NCBI GenBank assembly: GCA_020445645.1
Contig: JAGRGG010000075.1
Location: forward strand, 1-62,102
Length of the DNA stretch: 62,102 nucleotides
Reading direction: 5' to 3'
Source of the DNA: Geminicoccaceae bacterium
Lineage (GTDB): Bacteria > Pseudomonadota > Alphaproteobacteria > Geminicoccales > Geminicoccaceae
How positions within the stretch are numbered: the stretch's first letter is position 1; each line of letters opens with the position of its first letter. This document shows positions 51,129 to 60,938 of this stretch, in pieces. Position numbers and translations under genes: made by a program. Under the pieces are notes generated by a model that saw only the letters and a list, made by a program, of their open reading frames with translations, was not told the DNA's origin and ran no database searches.

Positions 51129-52211
51129 TCAGGAGGCGCCGGCGAAGAGGTGACCGGCGGACGCGGGCCAGACGAGGCGCGCTTCGGTTCCGGAGGTCAG
51201 GCCGGCGTCGATGCCGGATGCGATCGGCATCCGCACGCCGATCTGCTGGCGCCAGGGTGCCTGGACGAGGAAGTGCAGGCTGTCGCCGAGATAGGTGACG
51301 TCGTCGATGCGGACCGGGACGCCGCCCGTGGACGCCGTTTCGAGCCGCAGGCGCTCGGGCCGGACCATGAGGGCGCAGGATTCTCCGGCGCCCAGGCGCT
51401 GATGCATCCGCACGCCCGTGAGGCGGGTGCCGTCGGGGAGCCGGACCGCCGCCGCGTCGCCCTCGCCGCGCTCCATCTCGGCGGGGAGGAAGTTGGAGCT
51501 GCCGATGAACCCGGCGACGAAGCCGGTGGCCGGGTTCTCGTAGAGGTCGCGGCCGGTGCCGGTCTGCTCGATCCGGCCCCGGTTGAACACGGCGATGCGG
51601 TCGGAGAGGCGAAGCGCCTCCTCCTGGTCGTGGGTGACGTAGAGGATGGTGACGCCGGTCTCCTTGTGGATGCGGCGGATCTCCAACTGGATCTTTTCGC
51701 GCAGCTTCTTGTCGAGCGCCGAGAGCGGTTCGTCCATGAGCAGCACCGGGGGGTCGTAGGCGAGGGCTCGCGCCAGCGCCACCCGCTGCTGCTGGCCGCC
51801 CGAGAGCTGGCCCGGCATCCGCCCGCCCATGCCGTCGAGCCGGACGAGCGCGAGCATCCGCGCCACCTTGGCGTCGATCTCGGCATCCTTCCGGCGGCGC
51901 ACGCGCAGGGGGAAGGCCACGTTCTCGGCGACGCTCAGGTGGGGAAAGAGCGTGTAGCGCTGGAACACCATGCCGATATTGCGCTTGTGCGACGGCACGG
52001 CGAGGAGCGACCTGCCGTCCAGGAGGACCTCGCCCGAGGTGGGCGGCTGGAAGCCGGCGATGGCGTAGAGGGTCGTGCTCTTGCCGGAGCCGGAGGGCCC
52101 GAGGAAGGTGAGGAACTCGCCTTTGGCGACTTCGAGCGTCACGTCCTCGACGGCGACGACCGGGCCGAAGGTCTTCCTGATGCCCTTGATGTCGAGGAAG
52201 GGGCGGGTCAT
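51129..52211 (-). CDS. ABC transporter ATP-binding protein, PotA-like
   Basis: A 360-residue ATPase of the spermidine/putrescine (PotA) importer type. Walker [10 protein letters not shown] is at 38-46, signature LSGGQQQR at 136-143, Walker B LLMDE at 157-161, and the switch histidine in [16 protein letters not shown]_2 domain follows (about 280-355). Its ATG overlaps the stop of the second permease (ATGA). It is the last gene of a nine-gene operon and energises the PotBCD-like components encoded just upstream. The substrate is probably not a classical polyamine, given the catabolic genes in the operon. Confidence 0.92.
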
Positions 52212-53008
52212 CGGCGGCTCCCGCGGCGGACGAGGGCGGCCGCCGCCATGAGGACGAGGGTGAGGAGAACGAGGAGCGACGAGGCGGCGGCGATCACCGG
52301 CGAGAGGTCCTGCCGCAGCACGCCCCAGATCCGCACCGGGAAGGTCTGGAGGGTGGGGCTCGCCATGAAGATGGCGACGATGACCTCGTCCCAGGAGACG
52401 AGGAACGAGAACACGGCGGCGCCGAACAGGCCGAGCTTGAGGGCCGGCAGCGTCACCCGGAGCTTCGCCTCGAACGGGTGCGCGCCGCAGACCACGGCCG
52501 CGTCCTCGATCGCCTTGTCGAAGCCCTCCAGCGCGCCCGTGATCGAGATGATCGAGAAGGGCAGCGCCAGGATCAGGTGGCCGATGACGAACCCTGCGAG
52601 CGTGCCGTTGAGGCCGACGCGCAGGAACAGGGCGTAGAGGGCGACCGCGAGGACGACGACCGGCAGGATCATCGGCGTGAGGAAGAAGGCGCGCAGAACC
52701 TCGCGGCCGGGAAAGCGGCCGCGGACGAGGCCGAAGGCGGCGAGCAGGCCGAGCAGCACCGAGGCGACGGTGACGAGCGCCGCCACCTTGAAGCTGGTCA
52801 GGATCGAGTCCAGCCAGCGGGGGTCGGCCAGGAGTTCCTGATACCAGCGCAGGGTCCATGCGGGGGGCGGGAACTGGAGCCAGCGCGAGGAGCCGAAGGA
52901 CAGCGCCACGATGAACAGGACCGGCAGGAGGAGGAACGCCGCCACCAGGACGCCCCAGAGGACGAGGATCCAGCGGAGCGCCCCCATGCGCTCGAAGGTG
53001 AGCAGCAT
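52208..53008 (-). CDS. ABC transporter permease, PotC-like
   Basis: A 266-residue inner-membrane subunit with six transmembrane helices and the binding-protein-dependent EAA loop (AAVVCGAHPFEAKLRVTLPA), which docks with the ATPase. It opens MLLTFERMGALRWILVLWGV. The start overlaps the stop of the first permease (TGATG) and its own stop overlaps the ATPase start, so all three are translationally coupled. Confidence 0.92.
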   Translation of the reverse strand: MLLTFERMGALRWILVLWGVLVAAFLLLPVLFIVALSFGSSRWLQFPPPAWTLRWYQELLADPRWLDSILTSFKVAALVTVASVLLGLLAAFGLVRGRFPGREVLRAFFLTPMILPVVVLAVALYALFLRVGLNGTLAGFVIGHLILALPFSIISITGALEGFDKAIEDAAVVCGAHPFEAKLRVTLPALKLGLFGAAVFSFLVSWDEVIVAIFMASPTLQTFPVRIWGVLRQDLSPVIAAASSLLVLLTLVLMAAAALVRRGSRR

Positions 53009-53904
53009 CAGCCGGCCCCGCCGGCGGTCATGCGGCCGGACCCCAGGAACCGCACCTGGAGGGCGTAGAGGGCGAGGGTGACGACGAGGAGGACGAAGGC
53101 GGCGGCCCCGCCCATGCCCCAGTCGAGCAGCGACTGGACGAGCTGGGCGATCAGTTCGGCCAGCATCATGGTGGAAGCGCCGCCGAGGAGGGCCGGGGTG
53201 ACGAAGTAGCCGAGCGACATCACGAAGACCATGAGCGAGCCGGCGGCGACGCCGGGCAAAGAGAGGGGCAGGAGGACGCGGCGGAACGCCTGCCAGCGGT
53301 TGGCGCCGCACAGGGAAGCCGCCTGGAGGACGGCGGGGTCGATCGCGCGCAGGGTCGCGTGCAGGGGCAGGATGACGAAGGGCAGCATGATGTAGGTCAT
53401 GCCGATGGTGACGCCCGCGAGGTTTCGGATGAGCGGCAGAGGGGCGTCGATCAGGCCCACGTCCATGAGCGCGCGGTTGATGACGCCGGTGCGCTGGAGG
53501 AGCACCATCCAGGCGTAGGTGCGGGCGAGGAGGTTGGTCCACATCGAAAGGAGGATGACGCCGAACAGGAAGGCCGCCCAGCGGCCGGGGAGAACCGCGA
53601 GCAGCCACGCGACGGGAAAGCCCGCGAGCAGCGAGGCCAGGGTGACGACGCCGGCCACGGTGAAGGTGTTGAGGAACACCTGCGCGTAGGTCGGCGTGGT
53701 CAGCAGCTTGGCGAAGTTCTCCAGCCCCGGCGTCGGTTCGAGCACGCTGCGCAAAAGGAGCGCCACGACCGGGAGGACGAAGAAGAAGGCGAGCAGCAGG
53801 AAGGCGGGCAGGACGTAGCCGAGCCCGTCCCATCGCCTTAGGCTCGGCGCACGGCCCGCCGCCGGGAGGCCGTGCGCCGGCATCGTCGACGGGCCGTGCG
53901 CCAT
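53008..53904 (-). CDS. ABC transporter permease, PotB-like
   Basis: A 298-residue permease with six transmembrane helices. The EAA loop is AASLCGANRWQAFRRVLLPL, followed by PGVAAGSLMVFVMSLGYFVT. It has a longer cytoplasmic N-terminus (MAHGPSTMPAHGLPAAGR) than usual, so translation may start at the internal ATG eight codons in. The gene begins 3 nt after the binding-protein stop. It pairs with the PotC-like protein as a heterodimer. Confidence 0.92.
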   Translation of the reverse strand: MAHGPSTMPAHGLPAAGRAPSLRRWDGLGYVLPAFLLLAFFFVLPVVALLLRSVLEPTPGLENFAKLLTTPTYAQVFLNTFTVAGVVTLASLLAGFPVAWLLAVLPGRWAAFLFGVILLSMWTNLLARTYAWMVLLQRTGVINRALMDVGLIDAPLPLIRNLAGVTIGMTYIMLPFVILPLHATLRAIDPAVLQAASLCGANRWQAFRRVLLPLSLPGVAAGSLMVFVMSLGYFVTPALLGGASTMMLAELIAQLVQSLLDWGMGGAAAFVLLVVTLALYALQVRFLGSGRMTAGGAG

Positions 53905-53907
53905 CGC

Positions 53908-54918
53908 CTACTGCGCCTGCCAAGCGTACCAGCGGTCGGCGATCTCGCCCCGGTGGTCGGCCCAGTACGCCATGTCGAGGTCGATCTGCCCCTCGGTGTG
54001 CTGGTCGGGGAGGCCCTTGACCGTCGCCTCGTCCATCAGCTTCTGCGCCGCCGGGGTGACGGGCGCGTAGGCCGTGAGTTCGGCCAGCTTCGCCTGCCCC
54101 TCGGGGCTCGTCGCCCGGGCCAGGAACTGCATGGCGAGGTCCTTGTGCTTCGCCCCCTTGGGCACGACCAGCATGTCGGCGGCGGTGAGGTTCTGCGCCC
54201 AGGAGATGCCGACCGGGGCGCCTTCCTGCTGGAGGGCGTAGAGGCGCCCGTTCCAGAACTGGCCGAGCGAGGCTTCGCCCGAGGCGAGAAGCTGCTGCGA
54301 CTCGGCGCCCGAGCCCCACCAGACGATGTCGCCCTTGATGGCGTCGAGCTTGGCGAACGCGCGGTCGAGGTCGAGCGGGTAGAGGTCCTTCGGCGCCACG
54401 CCGTCGGCGAGGAGCGCGATCTCGAGGGCGCCCGGCGCCGACCACTTGTAGAAGGCGCGCTTGCCGGGGTGCTTGTCCGTGTCGAACACGTCCGCCCACG
54501 AGGCCGGCGGCTCGCTCGAAGCGCCCTCGTTGTAGCCGAGCACGAACGAATAGTAGAAGCTGCCGACGGCGTGGTCGGTGACGAAGCGGGGGTCGATCGC
54601 CTTCCGGTCGACGACGTTGAAGTCGACCGGCTCGACCAGCCCTTCCTTCGCCGCCTGGACCGCGAAGTCGTACTCGACGTCGACCACGTCCCAGACCGGG
54701 CTGCCGGCCTCGACCATCGCCTTGAGCTTGCCGTAGTCGGTGGGGCCGTCCATGAGGACGTTGACGCCCGCGTGGTCCGCCGCGAACGGCACCGCCCACG
54801 CCTCCTGCTGCGCGTCCTGCGTCGTCCCGCCCCAGCTCGTGAACACCATGTCCTCGGCCAGCGCCGGGCCGGCGGCGAAGAGCGCCATCGCCGTGCCCAG
54901 GATCAGTTTCGTCCGCAT
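53908..54918 (-). CDS. ABC transporter substrate-binding protein, PotD-like
   Basis: A 336-residue periplasmic protein with a signal peptide (MRTKLILGTAMALFAAGPALA, cleaved before EDMVF) and the PotD-family opening VFTSWGGTTQDAQQEAW. Other marks are VWDVVDVEYDFAVQAAKEGL, VGSFYYSFVLGYN and DIVWWGSGAESQQLLASGEA. The type includes polyamine, mannopine and aminoethylphosphonate binders, so a cationic or amino-bearing ligand is likely but not proven. GGAGG lies 7 nt before ATG 54918. Confidence 0.92.
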   Translation of the reverse strand: MRTKLILGTAMALFAAGPALAEDMVFTSWGGTTQDAQQEAWAVPFAADHAGVNVLMDGPTDYGKLKAMVEAGSPVWDVVDVEYDFAVQAAKEGLVEPVDFNVVDRKAIDPRFVTDHAVGSFYYSFVLGYNEGASSEPPASWADVFDTDKHPGKRAFYKWSAPGALEIALLADGVAPKDLYPLDLDRAFAKLDAIKGDIVWWGSGAESQQLLASGEASLGQFWNGRLYALQQEGAPVGISWAQNLTAADMLVVPKGAKHKDLAMQFLARATSPEGQAKLAELTAYAPVTPAAQKLMDEATVKGLPDQHTEGQIDLDMAYWADHRGEIADRWYAWQAQ

Positions 54919-56769: not shown

Positions 56770-57807
56770 TCAGGCGAAGGCCGGCATGACTTCCTTGATG
56801 AACAGGTCGAGCGAGCGCCGCTTGCGCCCGAAATCCATCAGGCTGTCGATCCACACCGCGTACTGGTCGACGCCGAGTTCCTCCGCCCGCCGCAGCCGCG
56901 CGATCACCCGCTCCGGCGTGCCGATGACGAGCTGCTCCTTCATCCGCTCCGGGGCGTACATCGCCTGCGCTTCGATCTCGGCCTCGGTGAGGGGCTCGAT
57001 GAAGCCCTGGCGGATCGGCCGCTCGTTCTTGAACCACGCGCCGAAATAGGCGTAGTAGCGCGACATCGCCCTGGCGATCTCGTCCGTCCCGGCCTCGTTC
57101 TCGGCGACGAAGGTGTGCCGCAGCAGCATGAGGCGGGGGCGAGGGGTGTCGGGGTGCGCGGCGCAGGCCTTCCTGAAGCGCTCGGCCAGGGTTTCCACCT
57201 CTCCGTCGCCCTGCCAGAGCGGCGTCACCTGGACGTTGCAGCCGTTGGCGACGGCGAAGTCGTGCGAGGACGGGTCGCGCGCCGCGATCCAGATCGGCGG
57301 GTGCGGTTCCTGCACGGGCTTGGGGGACGCCGTCGTGCTCGGGAACGACCAGCAGGCGCCCTCGTGGGCGTAATCGCCCTGCCACAGCCCCTTGAGCGCC
57401 GGGACCATCTCGCGCAGGTGCCGGCTCCCTTCCGGCCCCGGCATCCCGCCGGCCAGCCGGTCGAACTCGAACTGGTAGGCGCCGCGGGCGAGGCCGAGGT
57501 CGAGCCGGCCGCCGCTGAGGAGGTCGACGAGCGCCGCTTCGCCGGCCAGCTTGATCGGGTGCCAGAAGGGGGCGACGATCGTGCCCGTGCCGAGCCGGAC
57601 GCGCTCGGTGCGCCGGGCGAGGTCGGCGAGGTAGATGAAGGGGTTGGGGGCGATCGTGAACTCCATCCCGTGGTGCTCGCCGATCCAGACCGCCTCCATC
57701 CCGCCGGCCTCGGCCATCAGCGCGAGGTCGACGAGGTTTCGGTGCAGCTCGGCGTGGCCCACGGCCGGGTCGGCACGCTCCATGTGGACGAAGAGCGAGA
57801 ACTTCAT
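56770..57807 (-). CDS. Luciferase-like flavin-dependent monooxygenase
   Basis: A 345-residue bacterial-luciferase-family (LLM) protein that uses reduced flavin and O2. The TIM-barrel landmarks are MEAVWIGEHHGMEFTIAPNP, VRLGTGTIVAPFWHPIKLAG, LSGGRLDLGLARGAYQFEFD and PPIWIAARDPSSHDFA. Reduced flavin is probably supplied by the reductase domain of the fusion protein encoded immediately upstream, whose stop overlaps this start (ATGA). The substrate is unknown. RutA, which opens the uracil ring, belongs to the same superfamily. Confidence 0.92.
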   Translation of the reverse strand: MKFSLFVHMERADPAVGHAELHRNLVDLALMAEAGGMEAVWIGEHHGMEFTIAPNPFIYLADLARRTERVRLGTGTIVAPFWHPIKLAGEAALVDLLSGGRLDLGLARGAYQFEFDRLAGGMPGPEGSRHLREMVPALKGLWQGDYAHEGACWSFPSTTASPKPVQEPHPPIWIAARDPSSHDFAVANGCNVQVTPLWQGDGEVETLAERFRKACAAHPDTPRPRLMLLRHTFVAENEAGTDEIARAMSRYYAYFGAWFKNERPIRQGFIEPLTEAEIEAQAMYAPERMKEQLVIGTPERVIARLRRAEELGVDQYAVWIDSLMDFGRKRRSLDLFIKEVMPAFA

Positions 57808-59528
57808 GGCGCCCTCTCCAGCGTCCTGACCGTGCCCTTGCTCGCGTCGCCGGCGTAGACCCCGAAGATGTCCCGCTCGCGCTCGCCGACGTAGCGGCGC
57901 AGCATCGCGCGCGCGGCGTCGTCGGGCAGGTCGTCCCAGGGGATGTCGGCGAAGGGGACGAATCGCGCCCTCTTCGGGTCGGGCTCGCCGCCCCGGCTCT
58001 CGCCCCGGTAGTAGACCCAGAGCGTTCCGTCCCCTGCGTCCTCGAAGACCGCGAAGAGAAAGCCGATCTCGACCTCGAGGCCGAGCGCGGCGAGGAGCCC
58101 GGTGAGCGAGCGCTCGCCCCCCCGGTCGAAGCTGGCGGCGTTCGGCAGGGTCCAGCCGCCGGACCCCTTGGGCAGGAGGAGGACGGCGCCGTCGCGCTCG
58201 ACGACGGCGCCGATCCGGCGGCGCTCGGCGTCGAGGGCGTCCCCCGACAGGCCGAAGGTCACGTAGCTGCCCCGGCAGTAGCCGAGCGGGCCGTGGCCCG
58301 CCTCGCCGAACGCCTGCACCCGGCCGATGAGGACGACGTGGTCGCCCGCGTCCACGACCTCGTGCAGGGTGCAGTCGAGCCACGCGGCGACCCCCTCGAT
58401 CACCGGGGCGCCCGTCGCCTCCGGGCGCCAGGGGACGCCCGCGAAGCGGTCCGCCGCGCGCGCGGCGAAGGCGTCGGAGACCCGGCGCTGGTCGGTCGCC
58501 AGGATGTTGACCGCGTAGCGGCCGGCGTTGCTGAAAACCTCGCAGGCCGACGCCGCCTTGGCGAGGCAGACGAGGACCAAGGGCGGGTCGAGCGAGACCG
58601 AGGTGAAGGAGTTGGCGGTAAAGCCCCTCGGCGTCCCGGCCGCGTCCAGGGTCGTCACCACCGTGACGCCGGTGAGGAAGGCGCCGAGCGCCCGGCGCAG
58701 CCCGCGCGGGTCGAGCGCCGGCGCCGCGTGCCGCGCCATCGCGTCGCGCAGCAGCCGGTTGACCCGTTCCGGGGCGGCGAGCGCCATCATGTGCCGCTCG
58801 CCCTCCAGCACCGGCGATTCGCCCAAGGGCGCCGCCTCGGCCATCCGCCGCGACATCAGGGGCGTCGAGTTCGGGTCGAGGCTGCCGGTGGCGAAGACCG
58901 CCGGCACGGCCAAGGCTTGCAGCCTGCCGGCGAAGCGGTCGTCCGACGTTGCGAACACCCGGTAGGCGGTGGCGTAGCCTTCGGGGTCGACCCCTTCGAG
59001 GAGGCGCCGCGCCGCGTCCCGCGCCGCCGCCTGCCCCGCGTCGGGCGCTGGGCCGAACCAGCGGTCGAGCGTGGCCCCGACCGCCGCCGGCCCCCGCCCG
59101 CGCAGCGCCGCCGCCCGCGCCTCGACCGCCCGCCGGCCCTCAAGGTCGCGCTCGTAGACGGTGTTGAGGGCGACGAGCAGGCGGACGCGCTTCGGGCACC
59201 GCAGCGCGAGGCCGATGGCAACGAGCCCGCCCATCGAGTGGCCGATCACGACGGCGGGGCCGATCGCCAGCCGGTCGAGCAGGCGCTCCAACTGGTCGAC
59301 GTAGTCGTCGAGGTCGGCGCCCTCCGGCGCCGGGGCGCTCCCGCCGTGGCCCAGGAAGTCGTAGGTCAGCACGCGGTGGTCGCGCGACAGGTCGGCGGCC
59401 TGCGCCTCCCAGACCTCCTTGCCCATGCCGACGCCGTGGACGAGGACGACGGGCGGTCCCTCGCCGGCGAGTCTGTAGGCCGTGCCGTCGATGTTGCCGC
59501 CGTCCTCGGGGCCGCCCTCAGGCGGCAT
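57804..59528 (-). CDS. Fusion: alpha/beta hydrolase, flavin reductase, Nudix-like domain
   Basis: A 574-residue three-domain protein. Residues 15-265 are an alpha/beta hydrolase with GHSMGG (Ser98), Asp218 (GSLDPN) and His246 (GERHMM). Residues 275-430 are an FMN reductase domain of the HpaC/RutF type (LGAFLTGVTVVTTLDAAGTP, GFTANSFTSVSLDPPLVLVC). Residues 435-550 look like a Nudix fold (IGAVVERDGAVLLLPKGSGG, then WTLPNAASF) but lack the REx2EE Nudix box, so that domain is probably non-catalytic. Two enzymes that act around an LLM monooxygenase are thus joined in one chain. The start overlaps the stop of the DUF1185 gene by 11 nt. There is no sign of a frameshift joining separate genes. Confidence 0.85.
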   Translation of the reverse strand: MPPEGGPEDGGNIDGTAYRLAGEGPPVVLVHGVGMGKEVWEAQAADLSRDHRVLTYDFLGHGGSAPAPEGADLDDYVDQLERLLDRLAIGPAVVIGHSMGGLVAIGLALRCPKRVRLLVALNTVYERDLEGRRAVEARAAALRGRGPAAVGATLDRWFGPAPDAGQAAARDAARRLLEGVDPEGYATAYRVFATSDDRFAGRLQALAVPAVFATGSLDPNSTPLMSRRMAEAAPLGESPVLEGERHMMALAAPERVNRLLRDAMARHAAPALDPRGLRRALGAFLTGVTVVTTLDAAGTPRGFTANSFTSVSLDPPLVLVCLAKAASACEVFSNAGRYAVNILATDQRRVSDAFAARAADRFAGVPWRPEATGAPVIEGVAAWLDCTLHEVVDAGDHVVLIGRVQAFGEAGHGPLGYCRGSYVTFGLSGDALDAERRRIGAVVERDGAVLLLPKGSGGWTLPNAASFDRGGERSLTGLLAALGLEVEIGFLFAVFEDAGDGTLWVYYRGESRGGEPDPKRARFVPFADIPWDDLPDDAARAMLRRYVGERERDIFGVYAGDASKGTVRTLERAP

Positions 59529-60108: not shown

Positions 60109-60144
60109 GCGCCCTCCCTTCCAGGCATCATTCGTTGGCGGTCT

Positions 60145-60158
60145 TATGGTATACCGTA
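60145..60158. promoter_or_regulatory. Candidate GntR operator/promoter
   Basis: TATGGTATACCGTA has a perfect GGTATACC core with near-symmetric flanks, the style of FCD-type GntR operators. It stands between the divergent GntR gene and the nine-gene operon, within the only AT-rich part of the gap. Confidence 0.6.
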
Positions 60159-60215
60159 TTACGGCATGTCAAGTACCGCTTGACCGCCCGGCGCCGGGCG
60201 GGGAAAACCCGCCCC

Positions 60216-60938
60216 ATGAACGAGCCTGGACTGAAGGTCGAGCGGCCCCCGAAGTCGCTGCGCGAGCTGACCCTGGAGAAGATGCGGGAAGCCATCCTGG
60301 ACCTCCGCTTTCCGCCGGGCGCCCGGCTCGTCGAGCGGCATTTGTGCGAGCAGTTGGGCGTCAGCCGCACCGTGGTGCGCGAGGTGCTGCGCCACCTGGA
60401 GGCCGAGGGGCTGGTGCAGACGGTCCCCCGCCAGGGGCCGATCGTCGCCCGCCTCGACCCGGCGCGCGCCGCCCAGGTCTACGAGGTCCGGGCCCTGCTC
60501 GAAGGCATGGCGGCGAGGGCGGCGGCCGGGCGCCGCGACCCCGAGGCGGTCGCCGAGCTGAAGCGCGTCGTGGCCCGGATCGAGCTGGCCTTCGCCCGAA
60601 ACGACCCGAAGGCGGTGCTCGCCGCCACGACCGACTTCTACGAGACCCTGTTCCTCTCGGCCGAAAAGCGGGTGGCCTGGGAGATCGTCCAGTCGCTCAA
60701 CGCCCAGATCAACCACCTGCGCGCGCTCACCATCGCGTCCCCGAACCGGGCGGACGCCGCGCCCTTCGAGATGCGCCGCATCGTGGAGGCCATCGAGCGG
60801 GGCGACGCCGACGGGGCGGCGAAGGCGGCCGGCGCGCACGTGGCCGCCGCCGCCGGCATCGCCGACGACCTGCTCTACGGCGGGGAGCCGCCGGCCCGCC
60901 CGTCGCGCCCGGACCCCCCCGCCGGCAGGGCCTCCTGA
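60216..60938 (+). CDS. GntR-family regulator with FCD domain
   Basis: A 240-residue FadR-subfamily regulator with a winged helix at about 15-80 (PPGARLVERHLCEQLGVSRT, then VVREVLRHLEAEGLV) and an all-helical FCD ligand domain at about 90-220 (VYEVRALLEGMAARAAAGRR; metal-type histidines near 185 and 215 are not obvious). The tail is proline-rich. ATG 60216 was preferred to an upstream in-frame start lying inside the operator region. It is divergent from the DUF1185-to-PotA operon and probably represses it until the substrate or an intermediate binds. Confidence 0.92.
   Translation: MNEPGLKVERPPKSLRELTLEKMREAILDLRFPPGARLVERHLCEQLGVSRTVVREVLRHLEAEGLVQTVPRQGPIVARLDPARAAQVYEVRALLEGMAARAAAGRRDPEAVAELKRVVARIELAFARNDPKAVLAATTDFYETLFLSAEKRVAWEIVQSLNAQINHLRALTIASPNRADAAPFEMRRIVEAIERGDADGAAKAAGAHVAAAAGIADDLLYGGEPPARPSRPDPPAGRAS

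Follow-up and report, generated by a model that had tools for sequence, protein, structure and literature searches.

The fused gene and its operon

In the window, which is the whole stretch of 62,102 nucleotides that was analysed, a divergent GntR/FCD regulator is followed on the minus strand, in this order, by genes for a DUF1185 protein, a fused three-domain protein, an LLM-class flavin oxygenase, an aldehyde dehydrogenase (ALDH), a NIPSNAP-family protein, and the substrate-binding protein (SBP), two permeases and ATPase of an ABC importer (Table 1). The DUF1185 gene and the fused gene overlap by 11 bases, and the stop codon of the fused gene and the start codon of the LLM oxygenase gene share bases in the sequence ATGA. 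The palindrome GGTATACC between the operon and its regulator is a possible operator of the GntR/FCD family; the GntR gene may in truth start downstream of the listed position.

Table 1. Features of the locus, with intact Nudix genes of related clusters (positions in the window unless another locus is named)
Feature	Position	Strand	Evidence or remark
ABC importer ATPase	51129..52211	-	
ABC importer permease 2	52208..53008	-	
ABC importer permease 1	53008..53904	-	
Substrate-binding protein (SBP), Pot-type ABC importer	53908..54918	-	Pfam
NIPSNAP-family small protein, 104 aa	54948..55262	-	Pfam; conserved in several clusters
Aldehyde dehydrogenase (TgnC-like), 490 aa	55274..56746	-	Pfam
LLM-class flavin oxygenase (TgnB-like), 345 aa	56770..57807	-	Pfam PF00296
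Fused three-domain protein (TgnD-like hydrolase, TgnA-like flavin reductase, box-less Nudix-derived domain), 574 aa	57804..59528	-	Open frame, Pfam
Nudix-derived domain without Nudix box, residues 437-570	57819..58220	-	Profile search, HHalign with controls, box in 0/46
HpaC-like flavin reductase domain, residues 272-424	58257..58715	-	Pfam, alignment, PDB 3rh7/3nfw/5zc2 matches
Alpha/beta hydrolase domain, residues 14-266	58731..59489	-	Pfam, 51-sequence alignment
Triad codon His246	58791-58793	-	
Triad codon Asp218	58875-58877	-	
Triad codon Ser98	59235-59237	-	
PF06684/DUF1185 protein (TgnF-like), 196 aa	59518..60108	-	Pfam E 4.8e-70
Divergent GntR/FCD regulator	60135..60938	+	Pfam; same position in relatives
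Palindrome GGTATACC	60148..60155	.	Very start of listed GntR frame, regulator-operon boundary
Intact zinc-ribbon Nudix genes in clusters	L128:9962-10522 (G365), L129 (G579), L130 (G668), L131 (G643)		

The fused gene is a single frame that runs from ATG to TGA without an internal stop. A Pfam scan of its product placed Abhydrolase_6 at residues 27-258 (E 1.9e-23) and Flavin_Reduct (PF01613) at residues 282-424 (E 7e-44; 150.1 bits against a curated cut-off of 27), and returned no Pfam domain past residue 424. In an alignment of hydrolase homologues, Ser98 (51/51), Asp218 (50/51) and His246 (51/51) were conserved, with the nucleophile in a GHSMG motif of the GxSxG type, and Arg127 was likewise invariant (51/51). 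The AGDH motif at residues 394-397 of the reductase domain was also invariant in its alignment. A first-pass annotation made from this DNA had proposed three domains in one chain, with an intact Ser98/Asp218/His246 triad and a complete HpaC-like reductase; the open frame, the Pfam scan and the profile search described below agree with it on the three domains, the conservation in homologues confirms the triad, and the Flavin_Reduct score together with the AGDH motif confirms the reductase. Inspection of the fused frame found no Shine-Dalgarno-like sequence upstream of Met264, a candidate internal start from which a free reductase might be made.

Profiles of the pyrimidine Rut pathway (RutD and RutF) and of PcaD matched the hydrolase and reductase of the window, all far under their curated NCBIfam equivalog cut-offs. 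RutF was thus rejected as the identity of the reductase (90.5 against 254.75), as were RutD (77.2 against 238.5), and with it the Rut pathway, and PcaD (130.8 against 255.85) as identities of the hydrolase. The HpaC and HsaB equivalogs also scored under their NCBIfam cut-offs, and HpaC was rejected on that ground.

The order DUF1185-hydrolase-reductase-LLM-ALDH is common to the window, Sinorhizobium meliloti pSymA, Rhizobium, Leisingera, Klebsiella, Pantoea, Burkholderia and Acinetobacter, and thus to alpha-, beta- and gammaproteobacteria. A chromosomal Acinetobacter cluster that was deposited as phage has this order and, in addition, genes for a GntR-like regulator and a heterocycle transporter, as well as gabD. 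This gene order, with the Acinetobacter gabD, corresponds to TgnF-D-A-B-C plus TgnE of A. baylyi, in which the trigonelline pathway TgnA-F of strain ADP1 was reportedly described by Perchat in 2018 (PNAS). The DUF1185, LLM and ALDH proteins of the window are 56-74% identical to their S. meliloti and Acinetobacter counterparts (67%, 57% and 65%, respectively, for Acinetobacter), and the importer resembles those of the S. meliloti and Mesorhizobium clusters (SBP 62-67% and permeases 64-75% identical; 62-74% for the importer against S. meliloti). Like the window, the Acinetobacter tgn clusters combine these five functions in the same order with a GntR-type regulator; unlike the window, they keep hydrolase and reductase separate, carry a permease rather than an ABC importer, and belong by sequence to a sister branch. 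In A. baylyi, the DUF1185 homologue TgnF stimulates the TgnE-dependent oxidation of succinate semialdehyde (PMC7913881), the TgnA/TgnB oxygenase system is the ring opener (PMC8269262), and growth of S. meliloti on trigonelline needs pSymA (PMC4207669). The S. meliloti cluster, whose genes were identified from translations, lies on pSymA about 3 kb from nifB and beside nifB-nifA. The trc genes are said to have been placed near nifAB by Boivin in 1990. A literature search returned nothing for SMa0793, nor for trigonelline with SMa0 locus tags.

Judged by these matches, the fused gene is most likely a TgnD-TgnA fusion. We consider it probable that the protein joins a TgnD-like hydrolase to a TgnA-like reductase in an operon whose products oxidatively open the ring of an N-methylated pyridine carboxylate, trigonelline being the most likely one, with a box-less third domain that came from a Nudix hydrolase. 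Sequence comparison establishes the fusion, the intactness of triad and reductase, the descent of the third domain from Nudix proteins, the family-wide loss of the box and the operon. The first-pass annotation had known of no assigned function for this architecture, which does not hold, since the operon matches the published tgn pathway and a structure of the reductase with the C-terminal domain has been solved (3rh7).

Following the known pathway, the importer would bring the betaine into the cell, the reductase domain would produce FMNH2 with NADH, and FMNH2 would pass to the LLM protein, which would cleave the ring. ALDH would then oxidise the ring-opened product, the hydrolase domain would convert N-methylformamidomethylene-succinate to succinate semialdehyde, methylamine, formate and CO2, and succinate semialdehyde dehydrogenase (SSADH), encoded outside the operon on contig C237 and 61% identical to S. 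meliloti SSADH, would complete the pathway. The fusion of hydrolase and reductase could fix their stoichiometry and co-localise the NADH-consuming step with the last carbon-releasing step. The earlier proposal that the protein works with the adjacent LLM oxygenase is supported. Of the accompanying idea that flavin reduction and hydrolysis are joined around this oxygenase, the LLM partner stands, but a direct hand-over does not follow, because the ALDH step would intervene. In the 2018 work the hydrolase reportedly acts after the aldehyde dehydrogenase step and not directly on the oxygenase product.

Other records touched the same gene set. The 'Acinetobacter phage MD-2021a' records (L153, CAKLQH020000001.1) are bacterial chromosomal DNA that includes a complete tgn-like cluster, and the best 'phage' matches are bacterial DNA deposited under phage names. 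On Acidiphilium multivorum pACMV1 (L028:11709-14220), an IS110-family transposase gene separates two pieces of the cluster's LLM gene, and ISAcr1 splits a nearby cytosine permease gene.

Ancestry and possible role of the third domain

A profile of 27 homologous C-terminal domains retrieved PDB 3rh7 (6.8e-44) and then the Nudix hydrolases 3cng (3.1e-11) and 3f13 (1.7e-5), below which came some 39 more proteins, almost all Nudix, down to E of about 2. HHalign of the C-terminal domain against Nudix proteins of the same genome gave a probability of 92.7% over 116 columns. As negative controls, profiles of 11 unrelated proteins, 40 copies with shuffled columns and one reversed profile reached at most 1.2%. 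The region that the first-pass annotation had singled out as Nudix-like (residues 435-550) is indeed Nudix-related in sequence, with residues of about 437-560 matching Nudix both by profile and by HHalign. The absence of the catalytic box, also proposed earlier, was general: the Nudix box GX5EX7REUXEEXGU occurred in none of the 46 homologues, so that box loss as a peculiarity of this one gene was rejected, and the metal-binding glutamate positions were mostly Ala or Gly in the homologue alignment. The sequence alignment also showed no zinc ribbon in the C-terminal domain of the window, and Pfam and NCBIfam scans of the 27 domains one by one returned nothing relevant. The profile and HHalign matches, taken with the lost box and the replaced metal positions, mark the third domain as one that derives from Nudix proteins and very probably no longer acts as a Nudix hydrolase.

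PDB 3rh7 matches residues 268-570 of the fused protein (E 2.9e-75) and was identified, by alignment to the translated locus, as the reductase of the S. meliloti pSymA cluster. Deposited as a hypothetical oxidoreductase, it has the reductase and the same C-terminal domain, and it differs from the window protein in having no hydrolase domain. The crystal structure is apparently unpublished and its depositors gave no function; the present assignment offers a probable function both for this structure and for a domain recognised by neither Pfam nor NCBIfam. Modelled with AlphaFold, the whole chain and the C-terminal domain (13 close sequences) reached mean pLDDT values of 47.5 and 44.7, too poor for use, and a Foldseek search with the low-confidence C-terminal model gave no match at E<=0.001, which the quality of the model makes uninformative.

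A precedent for an extra domain on a flavin reductase is AbHpaC (C1), the reductase of p-hydroxyphenylacetate hydroxylase, in which flavin reduction is held back by a C-terminal MarR domain until the substrate is bound (PMC10816480). Like the window protein, AbHpaC couples a flavin reductase to an additional C-terminal domain and serves a separate oxygenase (PMC10816480); unlike it, the extra domain is of MarR type and binds 4-HPA, whereas that of the window is Nudix-derived. By analogy with AbHpaC, the third domain could gate flavin reduction in response to trigonelline, FAD/FMN or a nucleotide. On this comparison it may plausibly regulate the reductase or bind flavin, and nucleotide sensing would be possible. 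Flavin binding is a reasonable first candidate because the zinc-ribbon Nudix proteins include plant AtNUDX23, an FAD/ADP-ribose pyrophosphatase.

The domain may instead be purely structural, a ligand-free module for oligomerisation or docking in reductase assembly, and we give this reading substantial weight while holding it to be the less probable one. It would account for the loss of the Nudix box in every homologue and for the low conservation of the domain, whose identity of 23-46%, compared with 53-66% in the reductase domain, places it with the least conserved parts of the operon. It sits less well with the retention of the domain in nearly every reductase of this branch, across alpha-, beta- and gammaproteobacteria, and with a conserved tail of the form R-Y-x2-E-x5-FGVY-x-G (...RYVGERERDIFGVYAGDASKGTVRT in the window), in which R..E...FGxYxG...G is nearly invariant among homologues.

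The sister branch and its substrate

In the trees, the reductase and hydrolase of the window branch with those of Mesorhizobium, Azospirillum and Acidiphilium, apart from those of S. meliloti and Acinetobacter (support 96/92). The same separation holds for all of the reductase, hydrolase, LLM and ALDH of the window, Mesorhizobium, Azospirillum and the sampled genome G393. Since the window thus lies in a sister branch of the S. meliloti and Acinetobacter enzymes, its substrate may differ from trigonelline. We regard it as possible, if somewhat doubtful, that the window branch degrades another N-methylated pyridine carboxylate or betaine with the same fusion and mechanism. Besides the split of the four pathway enzymes, this would fit the presence in Paraburkholderia sprentiae and Burkholderia multivorans of reductases of both branches close together. 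The two branches nevertheless share the operon layout, and between them the LLM proteins are 57-64% and the importers 62-75% identical. We hold a substrate of the N-methylpyridine type to be very likely, and trigonelline itself to be the likely one. On this assignment, many rhizobial and related proteins that are annotated merely as 'alpha/beta fold hydrolase' or 'flavin reductase' would take part in plant betaine catabolism.

In B. multivorans and P. sprentiae (L093, L025/L095), the two different reductase-Nudix genes lie within about 20 kb of each other, one in a DUF1185-hydrolase-LLM-ALDH operon and the other beside an ABC importer. The genome of the window itself carries a paralogous cluster of flavin reductase, ALDH, LLM, DUF1185 and hydrolase genes (contig C228:25000-30100; L096:5034-10047), whose LLM and ALDH are 45% and 59% identical to those of the window and which resembles the Agrobacterium fabrum pAt cluster; it is probably a pathway for another N-heterocycle or betaine.

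Intact Nudix relatives and the distribution of the fusion

When the profile of the C-terminal domain was searched against 398 genomes, free-standing Nudix proteins of about 190 amino acids were found in five of them (G365, G579, G602, G643 and G668). In all five the Nudix box is complete, a zinc ribbon is present and the tail, ...RYIEERQAGVYGIYMGNDDTGKVHF, is like that of the third domain of the window; the five proteins scored 82-101 bits with the domain profile, against 27-56 for other zinc-ribbon Nudix proteins. Each of their genes has a homologue of the hydrolase gene at a distance of about 4-5 kb. In the four clusters that were annotated, DUF1185, hydrolase, ALDH, GntR and single-domain reductase genes stand alongside, and three of the four also carry an importer SBP of the window's family. 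In the tree, generic zinc-ribbon Nudix proteins formed their own clade (97/96); with the exception of one distant Nudix sequence, the other side was made up of the five free Nudix proteins and the reductase domains. The association of free Nudix genes with the pathway is, as far as the trees indicate, a recurrent one and not the simple split of one gene, because the fused reductases have closer relatives than the single-domain reductases of these clusters.

Zinc-ribbon Nudix hydrolases (PF14803 plus PF00293; PDB 3cng) are thus the closest homologues of the C-terminal domain, the five pathway-linked ones sharing its tail motif; they have the zinc ribbon and the Nudix box, both of which the domain of the window lacks. 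By these relationships the ancestor of the third domain was a zinc-ribbon Nudix hydrolase, which related clusters still encode separately and in an active-looking form. What is new here, as read from sequence comparison, is that the third domain lacks the box in all 46 homologues and that it is most closely related to intact zinc-ribbon Nudix hydrolases whose genes, in five related genomes, lie close to the hydrolase gene. That the third domain still hydrolyses a nucleotide through other residues might be argued from its Nudix ancestry and from these intact relatives in clusters of the same kind, and it is very unlikely given the Ala and Gly at most metal-binding Glu positions and the missing zinc ribbon.

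In a tentative scenario, which we hold to be rather unlikely, a Nudix hydrolase would be a recurrent partner of the pathway (for example, making FMN from FAD for the reductase and oxygenase), would in one lineage have been captured by the reductase, lost catalysis and become its flavin- or nucleotide-sensing switch, and the downstream hydrolase would have been joined on later, giving the three-domain protein. We regard the fused protein as a pathway enzyme of a known kind in a new fused form, and the pathway-linked intact Nudix relatives as the most interesting result. Free, active-looking Nudix genes in some clusters, set against a fused, inactive copy in others, are a natural experiment in the control of reduced flavin in two-component monooxygenases.

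The three-part chain also occurs in 12 Mesorhizobium genomes, as one annotated gene of 1788 bases on plasmid pM0123d of M. amorphae, and in two other sampled genomes (G393 and G362). Most relatives have hydrolase and reductase-Nudix as adjacent separate genes, which often overlap or sit a few bases apart; this layout was found in Azospirillum, Rhizobium, S. meliloti, Leisingera, Acidiphilium, Klebsiella, Pantoea and Acinetobacter. Loss of a stop codon through faulty assembly or sequencing, a concern raised in the first-pass annotation, could be imagined for a draft of 291 contigs and for genes that in A. venetianus share one frame and lie one stop apart, and it is practically ruled out by the same fusion in these independent genomes. 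All fusions lie within one branch of the tree and three changes are required, so that one gain with losses and more than one gain are, on the tree, both possible. No match at E<=1e-45 came from the 30 further genomes that represent the window's family; the operon is therefore patchy in this family and was possibly acquired horizontally. In two further genomes, G123 (L100:4759-6099) and G183 (L049:1492-2814), independent fusions of hydrolase and flavin reductase, 441-447 amino acids long, were found without the third domain.
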